Part shown: piece by piece, positions 23,580-30,336 of the stretch
Layout of the letters: each line of letters begins with the position of its first letter
Numbering within the stretch: the stretch's first letter is position 1
Assembly (NCBI RefSeq): GCF_018413465.1
Contig: NZ_JAHCDK010000002.1
Location: 1 to 64,000, forward strand
Direction: 5' to 3'
From: Flavobacterium sp. CYK-55
GTDB lineage: Bacteria > Bacteroidota > Bacteroidia > Flavobacteriales > Flavobacteriaceae
DNA: 64,000 nucleotides
Notes under the pieces: model-generated
Database searches by the model: none
The model's input: the letters and a program-made list of their open reading frames with translations, nothing else
Told to the model about the DNA's origin: nothing
Made by a program: the position numbers and the translations under genes

Positions 23580-24010
23580 TTTAAGCACCTTCGTGAAAAG
23601 GAATTCTGCACCCCACAACTTCAGAACTTCTCAGGCACTCAGCAGCTCATACAACATAGAACATTCAACATAAAAACCACCCTTCTGTCCTACAGCGCAG
23701 CGGTCTACAGCGCAGCGTGTCTCTCATTCCGACGCAGGAGGAATCTCTATAAAGAGGCTGAGTGCCTGAGTACCTGAGCAGCTGCGCTCAATGAATGCGG
23801 CGTGTACTATTGATAGTTATGTTTTACTGAATGTTTTTTGAAACATCCATGTAAAACCACAACCCACCACACGTTTAAAAAGTGTACAAAGTTTAAGAAG
23901 TTTAGTTTGAAGCTTAATTCGTAATTCCCAATTCGTAATTCGTAATTCTTACAGCGCAGCCGTATCCCTCATTCCGACGCAGGAGGAATCTCAGCAACTC
24001 AGGCACTCAA
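23580..24010 (+). repeat. Composite short-tandem-repeat island 6
   Basis: Holds a reversed CTCAG array (23625-23650), AGCGCAGCG words (about 23694-23715), the 8-bp CTGAG array with its ATGAATGCGGCGT tail (23757-23803), a 9-bp-periodic stretch (about 23873-23910), a 7-bp array (23917-23950) and another CTCAG stretch at about 23990. It fills the gap between the divergent SCO and hotdog genes. No gene is supported. Confidence 0.8.
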
Positions 24011-24502: not shown

Positions 24503-24541
24503 AAAAATCCGGTATTGACCTAAGCCTCAACCGGATTTCAT
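24501..24541. terminator. Bidirectional rho-independent terminator
   Basis: Stem AAATCCGGT (24505-24513) / ACCGGATTT (24530-24538) with A-run on the left and T-rich right flank. It sits between the convergent hotdog and LamG genes. Confidence 0.75.
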
Positions 24542-24561
24542 TAACAAAAAAATTACTCAAA

Positions 24562-26379
24562 TTACTCTACTGAAAATTTTCGGGTTGACCACAAACCTTC
24601 GGCTGATTGCACACGCACGAGGTACATACCCGATGACAAAGTTGAAACATCAATTTTTGATTGGGTCGAAGAGATGATTTTTTGACCTTGTATGTTATAG
24701 ATTTCAATTGAATCAATCTGCTCAACCGACTCAATATTTAGGTATGCACGCGCAGGGTTTGGATAAAGCTGCATTTCAAAATCATTTTCAAATTGAGCCA
24801 CACCCATAGCATTGGTGGTAAACTGACCTTCGGCATAATGATAAACAATGTCCGGAGTAAAATCGCCTAAACCAATTCGATAAGAATACGTTGTGTTGGG
24901 CAATAAATTTTGAACTTGAATACTGTTAGCGCCCAAAGTTGGATTGTTACTGATGTACACTTGGGTATCAAGATCAGAATCGTATTCTACACCGGGGTTC
25001 ATGACAATTTCAGCAATTTGCATCGGAGCATTTCCTACCGAATCTACGTAGAAATTAATGGTCACCGAATTAGCCGTAATATTACTCTGGTTTACCCCTA
25101 AAATGGCAAACTTTGAGGTAGTTGTAAAAATTCTTGATTGTGTGTCAACTCCGGCACTGTTGGTAGCGATAATGCGCAACCAATACGACTGCTGTGCGGC
25201 AAATAATCCGTAGCTGGTTGAATATGATTGTACGGTGTTTCCGGTGGCACTACCGCCTGAATAAGTAATCATAGGCGGATTGGTTAAATCTCCTTGCCCC
25301 ACCTCAAAAGTAACTGAGGTATTCCCGCCATTGGCATTCAAATCATACGAAGCCTGGAATGAACTCGAATCAACAAAGGTAATGTCAAAATTGGTGACTG
25401 TAGGAGCTGTGACTAAATTGGCTTGGGTGGTAAAGCTTCGCCAAGACCCTAAGGTGGTTCCACCTGAATTGGTGGCTTCAACACGGTAGTAATAAGTGGT
25501 TCCCGGTTGCAAACCTGTTAAGGTTTGGGTTAAGTAATAAGCGCCTGTTCCAGTAGCCGAAGGCCCGTTCTGAACCAAATTGATGTTGGCAAAATCAGTT
25601 CCGTAGCGAATTAAGGTGGTGGTGGTGGTGCCAAACGGATTGACATAATATTCAATACCGGTTGCATCTTGTGTTGTATTGAATGAGTTTACACTGCTGA
25701 TGGTCGGTAACGATGCAATTCCCGCCAAAGTATTGACCTCAGATTGGCTCAAGGCAAAATCAAAAATCTTGAGGTCGTCAATGGTAGCATTCATTCCGAA
25801 CAAAGCGTTGTTGATAAGCTTACCTACTGAAAAAGTAGTTCCTGACGTGTTCCAAGCGGCGGTATTGGAAATAATCTGTGTACCGTTGACATAAGCTTTT
25901 AGGGTGCTGTTGCTGTAGGTTACGGTATAGTTATACCACACTCCGGTTGAAGGTGCAAAAGCTCCGGTAAAATCGCTGCCCCAGCCGTAGTGAACCAATT
26001 CATTCAAATTGCCCGGATTGCCCTGAACAAGTCCGTATGCTTGGCCTGAGGCGGCTGATCCGTATCCGTATAAAAATTGTCTGTTTTGTAGGTTGTCAAA
26101 CTTTACCCACATTGAAATTGATCGGGCAGCTGAACCCTGCGGCAAGTTCGGAATTGTGGCTTCTAAGTAATCAACACTTGTGCCCGCTCCGAGTTGTTTG
26201 GCGCTGTTTGGGTTTCCGTTTCGATCAGCCACATAAGTTGACCCATAATTACCTCCAAATACAATTGAATTGTTTGAATTGTACATGGTGTTGTTGAACG
26301 TAAAATGGTGAATCGGATTTTGTGCCTGTGCCAAAGTGGTCATCAGGCCCAACCATAGTAATTGTAATTTTTTCTTCAT
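24562..26379 (-). CDS. Secreted LamG/FN3-like protein with T9SS type A tail
   Basis: A 605-residue protein starting at MKKKLQLLWLGLM (signal peptide to about residue 19). Residues about 20-230 resemble a LamG/concanavalin-like domain (ATIDDLKIFDFALSQSEVN near its end). The middle 300 residues hold three fibronectin III-like segments with YYRVEATNSGG and YWLRIIATNSAG motifs. The last 75 residues form a Por-type sorting domain (LYPNPARAYLNIE, IYNIQGQKI, LSSGMYLVRV), so it is exported by the type IX system to the cell surface. Its promoter region carries a paired LytTR-type site at 26441-26472 and a -7 box at 26410-26403, so the LytTR regulator encoded at 27711 probably controls it. Confidence 0.85.
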   Translation of the reverse strand: MKKKLQLLWLGLMTTLAQAQNPIHHFTFNNTMYNSNNSIVFGGNYGSTYVADRNGNPNSAKQLGAGTSVDYLEATIPNLPQGSAARSISMWVKFDNLQNRQFLYGYGSAASGQAYGLVQGNPGNLNELVHYGWGSDFTGAFAPSTGVWYNYTVTYSNSTLKAYVNGTQIISNTAAWNTSGTTFSVGKLINNALFGMNATIDDLKIFDFALSQSEVNTLAGIASLPTISSVNSFNTTQDATGIEYYVNPFGTTTTTLIRYGTDFANINLVQNGPSATGTGAYYLTQTLTGLQPGTTYYYRVEATNSGGTTLGSWRSFTTQANLVTAPTVTNFDITFVDSSSFQASYDLNANGGNTSVTFEVGQGDLTNPPMITYSGGSATGNTVQSYSTSYGLFAAQQSYWLRIIATNSAGVDTQSRIFTTTSKFAILGVNQSNITANSVTINFYVDSVGNAPMQIAEIVMNPGVEYDSDLDTQVYISNNPTLGANSIQVQNLLPNTTYSYRIGLGDFTPDIVYHYAEGQFTTNAMGVAQFENDFEMQLYPNPARAYLNIESVEQIDSIEIYNIQGQKIISSTQSKIDVSTLSSGMYLVRVQSAEGLWSTRKFSVE

Positions 26380-26402
26380 AATGTTAGATTTGAAATTCAA
26401 GA

Positions 26403-26472
26403 CAAAAATATTTTTAGGGTACTTTTTTTTGATGGTTGACTTCACCAACGGTTGATATGAATTCACCAACCG
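26403..26472 (-). promoter_or_regulatory. Candidate LytTR-controlled promoter (LamG gene)
   Basis: On the minus strand, half-sites ACGGTTGGT and ACCGTTGGT stand 21 bp apart as direct repeats (plus-strand TTCACCAAC at 26441 and 26462). The second fits the LytTR consensus (T/A)(A/C)(C/A)GTTN(A/G)(T/G) fully. A -7 box TATTTTTG lies at 26410-26403, 31 bp from the proximal half-site, and no TTG -33 element is seen, as in activator-dependent promoters. Confidence 0.65.
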
Positions 26473-26484
26473 TATTTTTTTTGA

Positions 26485-27561
26485 TTATTGCGCAACCACA
26501 AATTCTTGTTTGTTCATAGAGGCATTGAGCTCGGCGCTCCAACCTGAATCAGTACTCAAAGTGCCTGAGCTAAAACTCTCTGAACGCTTGCTGCGTGGGT
26601 TTAGGGTTGTAACGTATTTTCCGTTGCGGAATAACTTAACCGGTCGGTCAGATTTGTTATTTAAATAAACTACTATTGAACCTGAAGATGATTTGCTTGA
26701 GCTGCCGGAGCGCGGAATTCCGTTGGGGTATAGCCTTTTCATTTCGGCGGCCCATTCTTTGTCAAGGTCGTTCTTAAAACGCTTAAAACCTTGTGCGTAC
26801 AATTGTGCAAACTGATTGGCAAACGCGTGTAAATCGTCAGCGGTGTAGGTTTGTGCTTGTTCTTTTTTGTCGGCGGTATAAAACAACATCAAGTTCTGAA
26901 TTTTTACATCGTCATATTCTGTTTTGTTTTGCTCACCGCGATTGTGCAAAGGCATATATCGGTTATTGCCCACCAAAAGGATGCCCGGCTCAAGCTGCAT
27001 GATATCGGCATCTGCAAAACTGACCAACTCGGCAGCTCCGCGTTCATACGGGTGCTCATTATAATCTTTGGGTTTGTAATTGGTATAATAAAAATGTTCA
27101 CTGCTGATGCGTTCAATCAGGGCCGGTTGCTTGAATGAATTTGAAATGCGCAAAACAGCGTCTAACGGATATGAGGTTCGCCCCCAAACCAGCGGTCTGA
27201 TTTTTTGATTGCCTGATTGGTAAGCATACTGACTTTTGGCTGATAGTTCCATTTTCTTTTCGTCAAATTCAAAAAGAAATTTCTTGAGGGGCACCTTATC
27301 GCCTGCCTCATTCTCGCCATAAATCACTTGTGAACAATAATAAACCCCTCCAAAACCATAGGAGTCTTTTTTGATGCTTTGCTGATCTAGAAAATTCTGT
27401 GCTGCATCTTCATCAGCACGGGTTTGATCTTTTTTTGAAGCCGAACCTTCGGCCGATTTTACTTTGTCTTTGAGTTTTCCGAGTAACCCTTGCGCGTTGG
27501 TTTGCATACCTTGACTCAAGGCTAAAACCAACAATCCGACGGTTAATTTAGTTTTCATCAT
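26485..27561 (-). CDS. Secreted protein of unknown function, LytTR-regulated candidate
   Basis: A 358-residue protein with signal peptide (LLVLALSQGMQTNAQ, cleavage near residue 23). The start could be either of two adjacent ATG codons. The N-terminal mature part is Lys/Ser-rich (LLGKLKDKVKSAEGSASKK). The centre has many Tyr and Phe residues, and a Ser-rich stretch precedes a C-terminal beta-like domain (IVVYLNNKSDRPVKLFRNG). No family recognised and no T9SS tail seen. It is divergent from the LytTR regulator gene, with a paired half-site between them. Confidence 0.7.
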   Translation of the reverse strand: MMKTKLTVGLLVLALSQGMQTNAQGLLGKLKDKVKSAEGSASKKDQTRADEDAAQNFLDQQSIKKDSYGFGGVYYCSQVIYGENEAGDKVPLKKFLFEFDEKKMELSAKSQYAYQSGNQKIRPLVWGRTSYPLDAVLRISNSFKQPALIERISSEHFYYTNYKPKDYNEHPYERGAAELVSFADADIMQLEPGILLVGNNRYMPLHNRGEQNKTEYDDVKIQNLMLFYTADKKEQAQTYTADDLHAFANQFAQLYAQGFKRFKNDLDKEWAAEMKRLYPNGIPRSGSSSKSSSGSIVVYLNNKSDRPVKLFRNGKYVTTLNPRSKRSESFSSGTLSTDSGWSAELNASMNKQEFVVAQ

Positions 27562-27577
27562 CTGAAGTATTTTTGGC

Positions 27578-27691
27578 CAAAATTACCTTTGAAGCAATCA
27601 CTTTCGGGGCACTTATTTCACCAACGGTTGTTTTGACTTCACGAACGGATAAAATGGATGACGCAGCAATGGCTTAAAAAATGTATTTTTG
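27578..27691. promoter_or_regulatory. Divergent LytTR-controlled promoter region
   Basis: Half-sites on the minus strand TCCGTTCGT and ACCGTTGGT are 21 bp apart (plus-strand TTCACCAACGG at 27617 and TTCACGAACGG at 27638); both fit the LytTR consensus. Toward the secreted-protein gene a -7 box TAATTTTG lies at 27585-27578, 32 bp from the proximal half-site. Toward the regulator gene TATTTTTG lies at 27684-27691. Confidence 0.65.
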
Positions 27692-27710
27692 AAAAAAAAC
27701 AATTCTATCC

Positions 27711-28457
27711 ATGAAAACAATCATCGTTGACGATGAACCCAAAGCCCGTTCAATACTGCACAACCTAATTACCGAGCATTGCAAAGGAATCGAGATTGTA
27801 GGCCAAGCCCAAAACATTAAAGAGGCCGTTAAACTCATCAACAGCCAAACGGTTGAATTGGTTTTTTTAGATGTTGAAATGCCCAACGAAAATGGTTTTG
27901 CCCTATTTGATTATTTTGAAAGACCAACCTTTGAAACTATTTTCTGCACTGCCTACAGCGCATATGCTTTGAACGCTTTTGAAGTATCGGCTATTGATTA
28001 TTTGCTCAAACCGGTAAGCATTTCTAAGCTACAAAATGCTATTGAAAAAGCCATCAAATCACGCGGTCAGAATCAAATTCTTGAACGTGTCAATGCGCTT
28101 CGTGACAACATCACGGTGAATCAATTGCAAAAAATAGCGCTACCGCTCTCAGACGGTTTATTCTTTATTAAAGTTGAAGACATTTTATATTTTGAAGCCG
28201 ATGGTTCGTATACCTATGTAATCACGCTTAAAGACAAGTATATGGTTTCAAAAAAAATCAAAGAGTTCAATGATTTACTCGAAAACGACCATCGTTTTTA
28301 TCGCGTCCATCGCTCGTATTTGGTTAATATTCAACAAATCAAAAAATACAGCAAAAAAGATGGAGCCAATTTGGTTTTTGAAAACAATCAATCCATTCCG
28401 GTGGCCCGTGAAAAACGAAGCGACTTTGACCAATACATCGGAAACCTCAGTGTATAG
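27711..28457 (+). CDS. LytTR-family response regulator
   Basis: A 248-residue two-domain regulator. The receiver domain (1-120) has the phosphoacceptor Asp in LVFLDVEMPNENG near residue 54, the acidic pair DDEPKARS at the N-terminus and Lys in YLLKPVS. The C-terminal LytTR DNA-binding domain (about 150-245) shows YFEADGSYTYV, FYRVHRSYLVN and IPVAREKR. It starts 60 nt after a paired half-site and is followed after one base by its sensor kinase gene. Candidate targets are itself, the divergent secreted protein and the LamG protein. Confidence 0.93.
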   Translation: MKTIIVDDEPKARSILHNLITEHCKGIEIVGQAQNIKEAVKLINSQTVELVFLDVEMPNENGFALFDYFERPTFETIFCTAYSAYALNAFEVSAIDYLLKPVSISKLQNAIEKAIKSRGQNQILERVNALRDNITVNQLQKIALPLSDGLFFIKVEDILYFEADGSYTYVITLKDKYMVSKKIKEFNDLLENDHRFYRVHRSYLVNIQQIKKYSKKDGANLVFENNQSIPVAREKRSDFDQYIGNLSV

Positions 28458-28458
28458 T

Positions 28459-30336
28459 ATGATGCGTACCCCTATTATGATGTTGCTTTTGTTGACATCA
28501 ATTCATCTTTGGTCACAAAATGAAAAAGTAGTGTTGCAAAAAAAAATAAAGCAACACACAAAACTTGATACCTTAAAATGTAATCTTTGGGCCGAACTAA
28601 TTGAGTTAGAAGAAGACCCAGCTATTTGGCCCAAATATAACCTTGAGCTCAAAAAAATTCTACTGCAAATCATTGCCGATCAAAAGCTTCAACAAACATC
28701 CCCGGAATGGTATGTCCGAAAACTCTTTACGGTTTTAATGTATGAAGCCCAAGATGCCAAATGGCAATACGGAAATAATGCTAAAGCGATTGCTCTTGAA
28801 TTTGAAATGCTCAAATATGCCCAAAGTATTGATGATGCTAAAATGATTTGCCAATCATATATTGAAATTGCAGCAACTTATATTGGACAAAAACTGTATC
28901 CCGAAGCACAGCAGTACCTTGAGAAAGCACTGGTGGTTGCGCGAAAAAGCAAAAGCGAATCTGAAATAGCTTTGGTATTAAATAACCTCGGACAGAACTA
29001 CAATGATTTGTTGCAGCCTCAAAAAGCGATTCCGTTGTTGCATGAAAGTTTGCAATTGGCCCAAAAGAACAAACTTAAAATCTGCATCAATATTCAAAAC
29101 AATTTGGGTGTTGCTTATTATAAACTAAAACGCTTTGACTTGGCGGTTGATCATTACAAACAATCGCTCAAAATAAGCCAAGAATTGCAAAACACTTCAG
29201 GGATAATCATCAGTTATTTAAACATTGCCAACAGCCTCAGAGATAATAAACAGTATACAAACGCCATTGAATATGCCGAGCAAGCATTGGCATTGAGTCA
29301 AAAAATCAATAGGATTCCCTATGTTGAGGCAGCCTACAAAATGCTCACCTCGTTGTATGAGTTAAGCCATCAACCCCAGAAAGCTTTGGATGCTTTTAGA
29401 GCATCGACCATTTTAAAAGACAGCATCATCAACGACGAAAACAAAAGTGCCATTCTTAAAACCGAGTTCAAGTATGAAAACCAAAAAAAAGAAGCACAGA
29501 TTAAAGCACTTGCGCAACAAAAAAAGATTGTTGAGCTAGAGAGTAAGCGTCAAAAAACTTGGTTGTATGTTTCGTTGTTTGCTGCGTTTGTTTTAGCACT
29601 GATTGGCTATTTGATGTTCTTGAGATACAAAACCAAAAAGCAAAATGAGTTGCTCAAGGTTCAACTTGAAGAGACTCAGAAAACCTTAGAAGCCGAGAAG
29701 AAATCAGTGCAAAGCGAACTCAAAGCACTCAGAAGCCAAATGAATCCGCATTTTATTTTTAATGCGCTCAACTCAATTCAAGAACAGTTTATGTATGGTG
29801 ATCGCGTGCTGGCCAACGAACAAATGGGCAACTTTACAACCTTGACCCGACAAATTTTAGATATATCGCGCAAGAAATACATCTCGATGGCTACTGAAGT
29901 TGATGTGTTGACCAAATACTTAGAGCTTGAAAAAATGCGCTTTGCAGATGATTTTAGCTATGAGATTACCCTAACCGATGAAGTAGACGAAGATTATCAT
30001 CAGATTCCGCCGATGCTCGTACAGCCTCTGGTTGAAAACAGCATCAAACACGGCTTACTGCACAAGTCAGGCCCTAAAAAAGTAACGATTTGTTTTGATT
30101 ATGATGAGGCCGAGAACACGCTGATTTGCACGGTTGAAGACAATGGCATTGGTCGTGAAAAAGCCTTGGCCATCAAAGAGAGTAATACTAGAACGCATCA
30201 ATCATTTGCTACCCAAGCCACCGAACAAACGCTTGAATTGTTGGAAGGCGAAAAAAGCACACTACACTATGATGATTTGATACAAGCAGGTGAATCAGTG
30301 GGTACGCGGGTTACTTTAAAAATTTCTTTGGCTTAG
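28459..30336 (+). CDS. LytS-type sensor histidine kinase with TPR domain
   Basis: A 625-residue kinase. The true start is the ATG at 28459 (MMRTPIMMLLLL, a signal peptide); a longer frame upstream overlaps the regulator gene. The periplasmic part (about 25-340) is built of TPR-like helices (ALVLNNLGQNYNDL, NNLGVAYYKLKRFDLAVDHY). One transmembrane helix lies at about 365-387, then a coiled coil, the His_kinase motif with phospho-His in QMNPHFIFNALNSIQ near residue 430, and the HATPase domain (LVENSIKHGL, EDNGIGREKA). Together with the LytTR regulator it forms a two-component pair typical of Bacteroidetes. Confidence 0.92.
   Translation: MMRTPIMMLLLLTSIHLWSQNEKVVLQKKIKQHTKLDTLKCNLWAELIELEEDPAIWPKYNLELKKILLQIIADQKLQQTSPEWYVRKLFTVLMYEAQDAKWQYGNNAKAIALEFEMLKYAQSIDDAKMICQSYIEIAATYIGQKLYPEAQQYLEKALVVARKSKSESEIALVLNNLGQNYNDLLQPQKAIPLLHESLQLAQKNKLKICINIQNNLGVAYYKLKRFDLAVDHYKQSLKISQELQNTSGIIISYLNIANSLRDNKQYTNAIEYAEQALALSQKINRIPYVEAAYKMLTSLYELSHQPQKALDAFRASTILKDSIINDENKSAILKTEFKYENQKKEAQIKALAQQKKIVELESKRQKTWLYVSLFAAFVLALIGYLMFLRYKTKKQNELLKVQLEETQKTLEAEKKSVQSELKALRSQMNPHFIFNALNSIQEQFMYGDRVLANEQMGNFTTLTRQILDISRKKYISMATEVDVLTKYLELEKMRFADDFSYEITLTDEVDEDYHQIPPMLVQPLVENSIKHGLLHKSGPKKVTICFDYDEAENTLICTVEDNGIGREKALAIKESNTRTHQSFATQATEQTLELLEGEKSTLHYDDLIQAGESVGTRVTLKISLA

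Follow-up and report, generated by a model that had tools for sequence, protein, structure and literature searches.

Conserved LytTR-type operator pairs at fixed distances from TAnnTTTG boxes in Flavobacterium suggest a local two-component switch for T9SS cargo

The agr system of Staphylococcus aureus (AgrA-AgrC) resembles the locus described here in that it combines a LytTR regulator with direct repeats 5′ of two promoters, P2 and P3, in one intergenic region, P2 driving the operon of the regulator itself. The YpdB and BtsR systems of E. coli pair, as here, a LytS-type kinase with a LytTR regulator, and LytS sensors of that type are multi-TM proteins. The repeat bound by YpdB, GGCATTTCAT, is similar to the ACCATTTATGAA-type half-sites reported below (PMC4847170, available text). 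The format of LytTR sites is a 9-bp repeat with a 12-bp spacer, according to the available text of PMC2766830, which also describes SilA-SilB of group A and G streptococci, a LytTR system sharing the 21-bp period found here. There, the repeats are 10 bp long with an 11-bp spacer, the promoters P3 and P4 are divergent, and two further putative sites lie near the locus; unlike the present case, each promoter has its own set of repeats, the signal is a peptide and the targets are others. The LRS systems HdrRM and BrsRM are positively autoregulated through direct repeats with a 12-bp spacer and a strong bias to a position 10 bp upstream of the -35 element, and two ‘LRS-like’ operons with repeats upstream of TATCTTTG have already been predicted in Bacteroides (both in the available text of PMC6193735). 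In Bacteroidota, PorXY offers a further parallel, that is, two-component control linked to the T9SS, and exerts its effect on the secretion machinery via an ECF sigma factor (PMC7712824, available text). At the level of search results, we found in the open PMC literature no description of a LytTR operator in Flavobacterium or of LytTR control of T9SS cargo.

The locus lies in a stretch of 64,000 nucleotides from Flavobacterium sp. CYK-55, hereafter the window. A LytTR response regulator of 248 aa (27711–28457, plus strand) consists of a receiver domain (PF00072, 77.1 bits, with Asp54 within FLDVEMP) and a LytTR domain (PF04397, 81.5 bits); its best NCBIfam match is BtsR, below the cut-off of that family. 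Directly downstream follows the gene of a 625-aa sensor kinase (28459–30336, plus strand) with an N-terminus that by eye looks like a signal peptide, a TPR sensor over residues ~20–366, a single hydrophobic stretch at ~367–391 (Kyte-Doolittle above 1.6) and a His_kinase domain (PF06580, 69.7 bits, NPHFIFN at 429, His431). By these domain tests the two proteins form a LytTR-family two-component system, in which DNA binding by the regulator is predicted. It differs from an LRS, made of a regulator and a membrane inhibitor (PMC6193735, available text), and one hydrophobic stretch with TPRs stands in place of the polytopic receptor kinase of agr/com type; the TPR sensor, the targets and the promoter type set it apart from YpdB/BtsR as well. 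The genome holds 16 LytTR domains, three of which lie within 12 kb of each other (G000:C5:80859-92819).

Two genes for putatively exported proteins precede the regulator on the minus strand. The first (24562–26379) encodes a protein of 605 aa with LamG (PF13385), fn3/Pur_ac_phosph_N and a T9SS C-terminal sorting domain (PF18962, 52.6 bits against a cut-off of 27; TIGR04183, 47.9 bits against 23), by which it is predicted to be T9SS cargo. The second (26485–27561) encodes a 358-aa protein with an N-terminus that, judged by eye, is signal-peptide-like; it has no Pfam or NCBIfam family, hence no match to a T9SS sorting domain, and single-sequence structure prediction gave no usable model (mean pLDDT 33.5). 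T9SS cargo among the predicted targets and the single-TM TPR sensor are both differences from agr.

The preliminary description of the window had placed paired direct repeats ahead of these genes, and both pairs were found exactly there, with an exact spacing of 21 bp: TTCACCAAC at 26441 and 26462, and TTCACCAAC at 27617 followed by TTCACGAAC at 27638. Read on the minus strand, pair 1 (ACGGTTGGTGAA-N9-ACCGTTGGTGAA, 26441–26473) lies 5′ of the LamG gene and pair 2 (TCCGTTCGTGAA-N9-ACCGTTGGTGAA, 27617–27649) between the two divergent promoters of the 358-aa gene and the regulator. The minus-strand half-sites are ACCGTTGGT (twice), ACGGTTGGT and TCCGTTCGT. Taking [TA][AC][CA]GTTN[AG][TG] as the LytTR consensus, three of the four match it fully, as had been claimed, and ACGGTTGGT departs at position 3. 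Within the window, exact TTCACNAAC-N12-TTCACNAAC occurs in pairs 1 and 2 only; at up to 3 mismatches it occurs at 4 places, a number reached by 0 of 100 shuffles (mean 0.99). We also carried out the genome scan that the preliminary description had proposed (3.15 Mb, 53 contigs). With CACSAACG-N13-CACSAACG, the window pairs are the sole places at 0 and 1 mismatches; there are 8 places at 2 mismatches, and at up to 3 mismatches the 63+72 places are little above the 66+46 of a reversed-pattern control. The observation of the repeat pairs is thus confirmed, far above chance.

We then asked how far the pairs accompany the regulator in 398 Flavobacterium genomes, in which the search for the regulator returned 35 rows from 27 genomes at threshold, 30 of them with loci to scan for pairs. 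The regulator is found at 71% identity or more in 12 genomes, the window's included, and all 12 carry a pair upstream of it and on the other strand, with the 9-bp core and 12-bp spacer of the LytTR format. The pairs are best described by ACCRTTBRTGAA-N9-ACCRTTBRTGAA (33 bp, scored out of 24), against which window pairs 1 and 2 score 23 each; the pairs upstream of the regulator score 20–24, compared with at most 21 at other spacings from 15 to 30. In 7 of the 12 genomes a second pair lies 80–87 bp further off. Among more distant relatives of the regulator (56–57%), three of four genomes have the pair (G352, G154 and G399, the last counted from locus L175), and G318, at 56%, has none upstream. 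In the 14 rows at 41–56%, G318 among them, nothing reaches 18/24 within 500 bp upstream. Locus L162, a second copy within genome G208, was set aside.

Some paralogous systems have weaker pairs (18–21/24) elsewhere at their loci (L165 3494, L174 1518, L176 4529, L083 7806). The repeat pairs at L174 1497-1550 and L176 4529-4561 belong to a paralogous system, and the latter overlaps a short ORF, so that the predicted peptide has a 7-residue repeat. A minus-strand pair lies between the kinase gene and polA of paralogous systems (L083 7806-7838; also G219:C45:69254, L174 12737 and L082 at about 8035). At L083 it is followed at 30 bp by a full TAATTTTG, with no evident gene downstream before the 3′ end of the kinase gene, and could perhaps belong to a small RNA or be what is left of a target since lost.

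The second regularity concerns the distance from the operator to the promoter. The -7 box of the LamG gene (TATTTTTG, 26403–26410, minus strand) lies 30 bp from pair 1, that of the 358-aa gene (TAATTTTG, 27578–27585, minus strand) 31 bp from pair 2, and that of the regulator gene (TATTTTTG, 27684–27691, plus strand) 34 bp from pair 2 on its other side. The 31 or 32 bp first given for the secreted-protein promoters differ from our 30 and 31 in counting only, ours being taken from the 12-bp half-site, and both promoters do lack a TTG at -33. Across the 25 pairs that score at least 20 (17 loci; L171 and L175, with near-identical promoters, were both kept), there are 11 full TAnnTTTG boxes starting no more than 52 bp downstream of the pair, 10 of them at 30 bp and one, that of the window's 358-aa gene, at 31 bp; five further pairs have a box with 7 of the 8 letters at 30 bp. 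Nine of the 25 are without a box at 30 bp, namely eight regulator-side pairs and L174 12737. Counted by genome and admitting pairs of 18/24 or better, all 12 genomes have the box 30 bp from a pair ahead of a secreted-protein gene, with all letters present in 8 of them and 7 of the 8 letters in the other 4. Ahead of the main cargo gene of G344, TAGTTTTG is present with a degenerate pair (13/24) at 30 bp. That locus (L169, 1-6756) has four secreted-protein genes in a row, three with their own pair and a box at 30 bp (two full, one 7/8) and the fourth with a degenerate pair alone, spaced 30 bp from the box.

Towards the regulator, the box lies 34 bp from the pair in 10 of the 12 genomes and 44 bp from it, that is, one helical turn further, in G025 and G208, where it reads TATTTTAG. 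It stays at 34 bp even in G163, where 154 bp separate the pair and the ATG. Boxes at the same distance (10/12 on the regulator side, 12/18 on the secreted side) compare with a maximum of 2 in 2000 shuffles of each set of stretches. This does not amount to a clean probability, as the loci share ancestry and part of the 18 came to attention through their box. In G401, a single pair is flanked by two boxes, 30 bp away in one direction and 34 bp in the other, and one site thus appears to serve both promoters; such two-way use, which several loci seem to share, is unlike agr.

The box of Flavobacterium psychrophilum promoters extends from -12 to -5 (PMC9723704, available text). On this numbering, pairs on the secreted-gene side would cover about -43 to -75, with the edge of the 9-bp core at -46, and the regulator-side pair about -47 to -79. 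The repeat centre would hence fall at about -59, AgrA repeats being centred at about -60 (PMC4227749, available text), and the location of the pairs is by analogy that of known LytTR activators. The absence of a TTG at -33, together with an operator edge near -43 (-46 for the 9-bp core), is compatible with activation. The promoters are of another kind than those of agr, which have -35 and -10 elements whereas these have TAnnTTTG without -33. The predicted Bacteroides sites also differ: their 11-bp repeats and 11-bp spacer make a period of 22 bp, and the box is 34 bp away, against a 21-bp period and about 31 bp here in the same count (PMC6193735, available text).

The alternative that survives best, although we consider it rather unlikely, is that the pairs activate the secreted-protein promoters only, the regulator side being repressed or unaffected and the 34 bp reflecting some other constraint. 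The repeat has a polarity and points away from the regulator promoter: in each of the 14 correctly oriented loci that have a pair, pair and regulator gene are on opposite strands. Autoregulation could therefore be negative. Moreover, the two loci with a 57% regulator that were examined on this point (G352 and G154) yielded no regulator-side box. Against it speak the distance of exactly 34 bp in 10 of 12 loci, with one helical turn more in the other 2, the lack of a TTG 14–24 bp before the regulator-side box in 11 of 12 loci, as expected of an activator-dependent promoter, and the location of the site upstream of the core promoter and not over it. We favour a regulator that activates on both sides.

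To gauge specificity we combined repeats and box in a composite pattern, RTTNRTGAA-N12-RTTNRTGAA-N30-TANNTTTG, and sought it with up to 2 mismatches in the 398 genomes. At 0–1 mismatch it occurs at 12 places in 10 genomes, at this locus alone; these are 10 of the 16 genomes with a regulator of at least 56% identity, compared with 0 of the 382 others, and the site is always beside the regulator. In 64 further genomes there are 2-mismatch places only; in G244, G163 and G091 this locus is among them, and the rest look scattered. The pattern was built from these very loci, so the independent evidence is its absence elsewhere. Allowing 3 mismatches recovers the locus in 15 of 15 genomes searched, with several background places in most. 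In the window's own genome, where pair 1 is the top-ranked composite site with 0 mismatches, that search gives three places: the two secreted-protein promoters and C10:39884 (3 mismatches), which was tried as a further member and judged to be chance. The predicted regulon thus comprises three promoters at one locus, and no convincing member was found elsewhere in the genome.

A 2-mismatch composite site in G203, an incomplete genome (68% complete), lies between a LamG/T9SS-like gene and a gene for a lipoprotein (Lipocalin_4) that resembles the one of G025 (L233 2126-2193). No regulator was found in this genome at the search threshold. We regard the site as an unplanned confirmation.

Since the genome has 16 LytTR domains and LytTR sites are mutually similar, the operators could be real and yet be bound by another LytTR protein. 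We judge this to be very unlikely: the composite at 0–1 mismatch keeps to genomes with this regulator (10 of 16 against 0 of 382), and around the remaining 15 LytTR loci no such repeat-plus-box was found within about 1.5 kb on either side with the criteria used. The regulator encoded beside the sites is the probable ligand.

In the nearest compared genome, G309 (SucC 99%, four flanking proteins 89–94%), the gene order is that of the window minus the 358-aa gene, and the two pairs lie 87 bp apart. Window pair 2 and the regulator-side pair of G309 are identical in 32 of 33 bases. The regulators are 72% identical and the match of the LamG gene is confined to the last 83 residues (40%), while in the kinase a sharp step near the membrane stretch separates a catalytic part of 91% identity from a sensor of 28%. 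At the DNA level, similarity ends at 24512, returns at 27616–28455 (72%), ends again and resumes at 29590 in the kinase gene (87.5%). Two segments hence have no detectable similarity to G309: 24513–27615, with the cargo gene, operator 1 and the 358-aa gene, and 28456–29589 on the plus strand, the sensor part. Upstream of a thioesterase gene, at 23873–23904, the window has a 9-bp tandem repeat, a stretch that matches five places at the G309 locus, so that its copy number seems to differ between both species.

Comparison of the 12 orthologous systems yields the same picture, with the sensor at a mean identity of 30%, the kinase part at 68%, the receiver at 74% and the LytTR domain at 79%. As controls we compared other loci of the window genome with G309: three other LytTR/kinase loci are 83–93% identical, and in a fourth the regulator is at 81% and the kinase at 68% (433 residues); a TPR protein is at 79%. 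In two other TPR kinases, too, the sensor evolves faster (23–68% versus 68–90% for the kinase part, and 25–43% versus 49–77% in a pair that is perhaps not orthologous), so fast sensor evolution is partly general. The extreme step was seen at this locus only, among the kinases compared, and a donor of the window's sensor was not found in the 398 genomes (best 29–33%). The sharpness of the step suggests replacement of sensor and cargo by recombination.

The cargo varies as well. When seven cargo proteins of six relatives were scanned with Pfam, six had LamG and a sorting domain and one (G208) an SBBP repeat and a sorting domain; the cargo of G244, G401, G163, G219, G091 and G154 was assigned by BLAST matches to these. 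A Lipocalin_4 lipoprotein is also encoded in G025, preceded by a pair of its own with TACATTTG 30 bp away. Similarity of the sensors does not follow that of the cargo (Spearman 0.09, p 0.44, over 78 non-independent pairs from 13 loci), and that of the regulators correlates with it weakly (0.32). G219 and G091 have sensors that are 98% identical and unlike cargo; conversely, five loci with similar cargo have sensors that are 21–31% alike in nine of ten pairs and 45% in one. Operator, regulator and kinase core are thus conserved, while the TPR sensor and the cargo vary strongly and independently of each other.

Two hypervariable partners beside a conserved regulator and kinase core recall the specificity groups of agr and com, in which the variable sensor would recognise the variable secreted product of its own locus; there is a precedent in PorA of P. 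gingivalis, a T9SS-type CTD protein that feeds back on a two-component system (PMC7712824, available text). The lack of covariation, although it tests the cargo alone as the signal, and the loci in which one partner is kept while the other is unlike make such a pairing quite improbable here. That the repeats are functionless is hardly credible: short direct repeats are common and the genome has 135 matches to the pattern when up to 3 mismatches are allowed, but 12 genomes conserve its sequence, its period, its strand and both of the fixed distances to a box, next to a sensor that has drifted to 30% identity.

For the 358-aa protein, relatives of its first ~100 aa (35–38%) were found in G344 and G244 only, among the 398 genomes, and both adjoin the same two-component system (loci L169 and L170). 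The G344 relative is preceded by a separate pair (score 18), 30 bp from TAGTTTTG; ahead of the G244 relative no pair was found. In the window lineage, the gene lies between what appear to be the two pairs that stand side by side in relatives, a placement that implies the same control. It is most simply read as an insertion between two pre-existing pairs, one of which came to serve both this gene and the regulator. Loss of the gene in the other lineages is the alternative, with which G344 and G244 are compatible.

Overall, we put at roughly 0.8 the probability that this is a locally acting LytTR two-component switch that activates the LamG, 358-aa and own-operon promoters, with sensor and cargo replaced independently in different lineages. 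The earlier proposal that the pair activates two exported proteins and itself thus gains support from co-inheritance, the fixed box distances and the restriction of the composite site to the locus; as this support comes from sequence comparison, binding and direction of control are predictions. The kinase, with its TPR sensor presumably exported to the periplasm, would respond to an envelope or external signal and phosphorylate the LytTR regulator. The regulator would in turn bind the two direct repeats of 9–12 bp, 21 bp apart, as motif, position and co-inheritance suggest, and activate TAnnTTTG promoters without a -33 element from a site whose edge lies about 43–47 bp upstream of the start. 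Its targets would be the LamG protein exported by the T9SS, the 358-aa exported protein and the regulator-kinase operon, with pair 2 serving the last two divergently. The conserved switch would comprise operator, regulator and kinase core, the sensor half and the cargo being replaced separately by lineage.

The DNA geometry is of the known LytTR/AgrA kind; more interesting is how the modules around it vary. What appears to be new is a switch predicted to be locally devoted to T9SS cargo, with one operator shared by divergent Bacteroidota promoters and with a sensor and a cargo that vary independently. While PorXY acts on the secretion machinery, the LytTR system would directly control individual cargo genes. 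Tentatively, and with slightly less than even confidence, we see in the locus a modular surface-display switch, in which sensor half and T9SS cargo are swapped separately by recombination and new secreted genes are captured under ready-made control. The orphan 358-aa exported protein gains a predicted regulator and partner genes. The fixed operator-box distances in both directions would allow a single LytTR site to control a divergent pair of Bacteroidota promoters. If right, the rule of a 21-bp repeat, 30 bp and TAnnTTTG would allow Flavobacterium promoters that lack a -33 element to be recognised as LytTR targets, and the locus would be a natural experiment in which a fixed switch is rewired to new inputs and new surface proteins.
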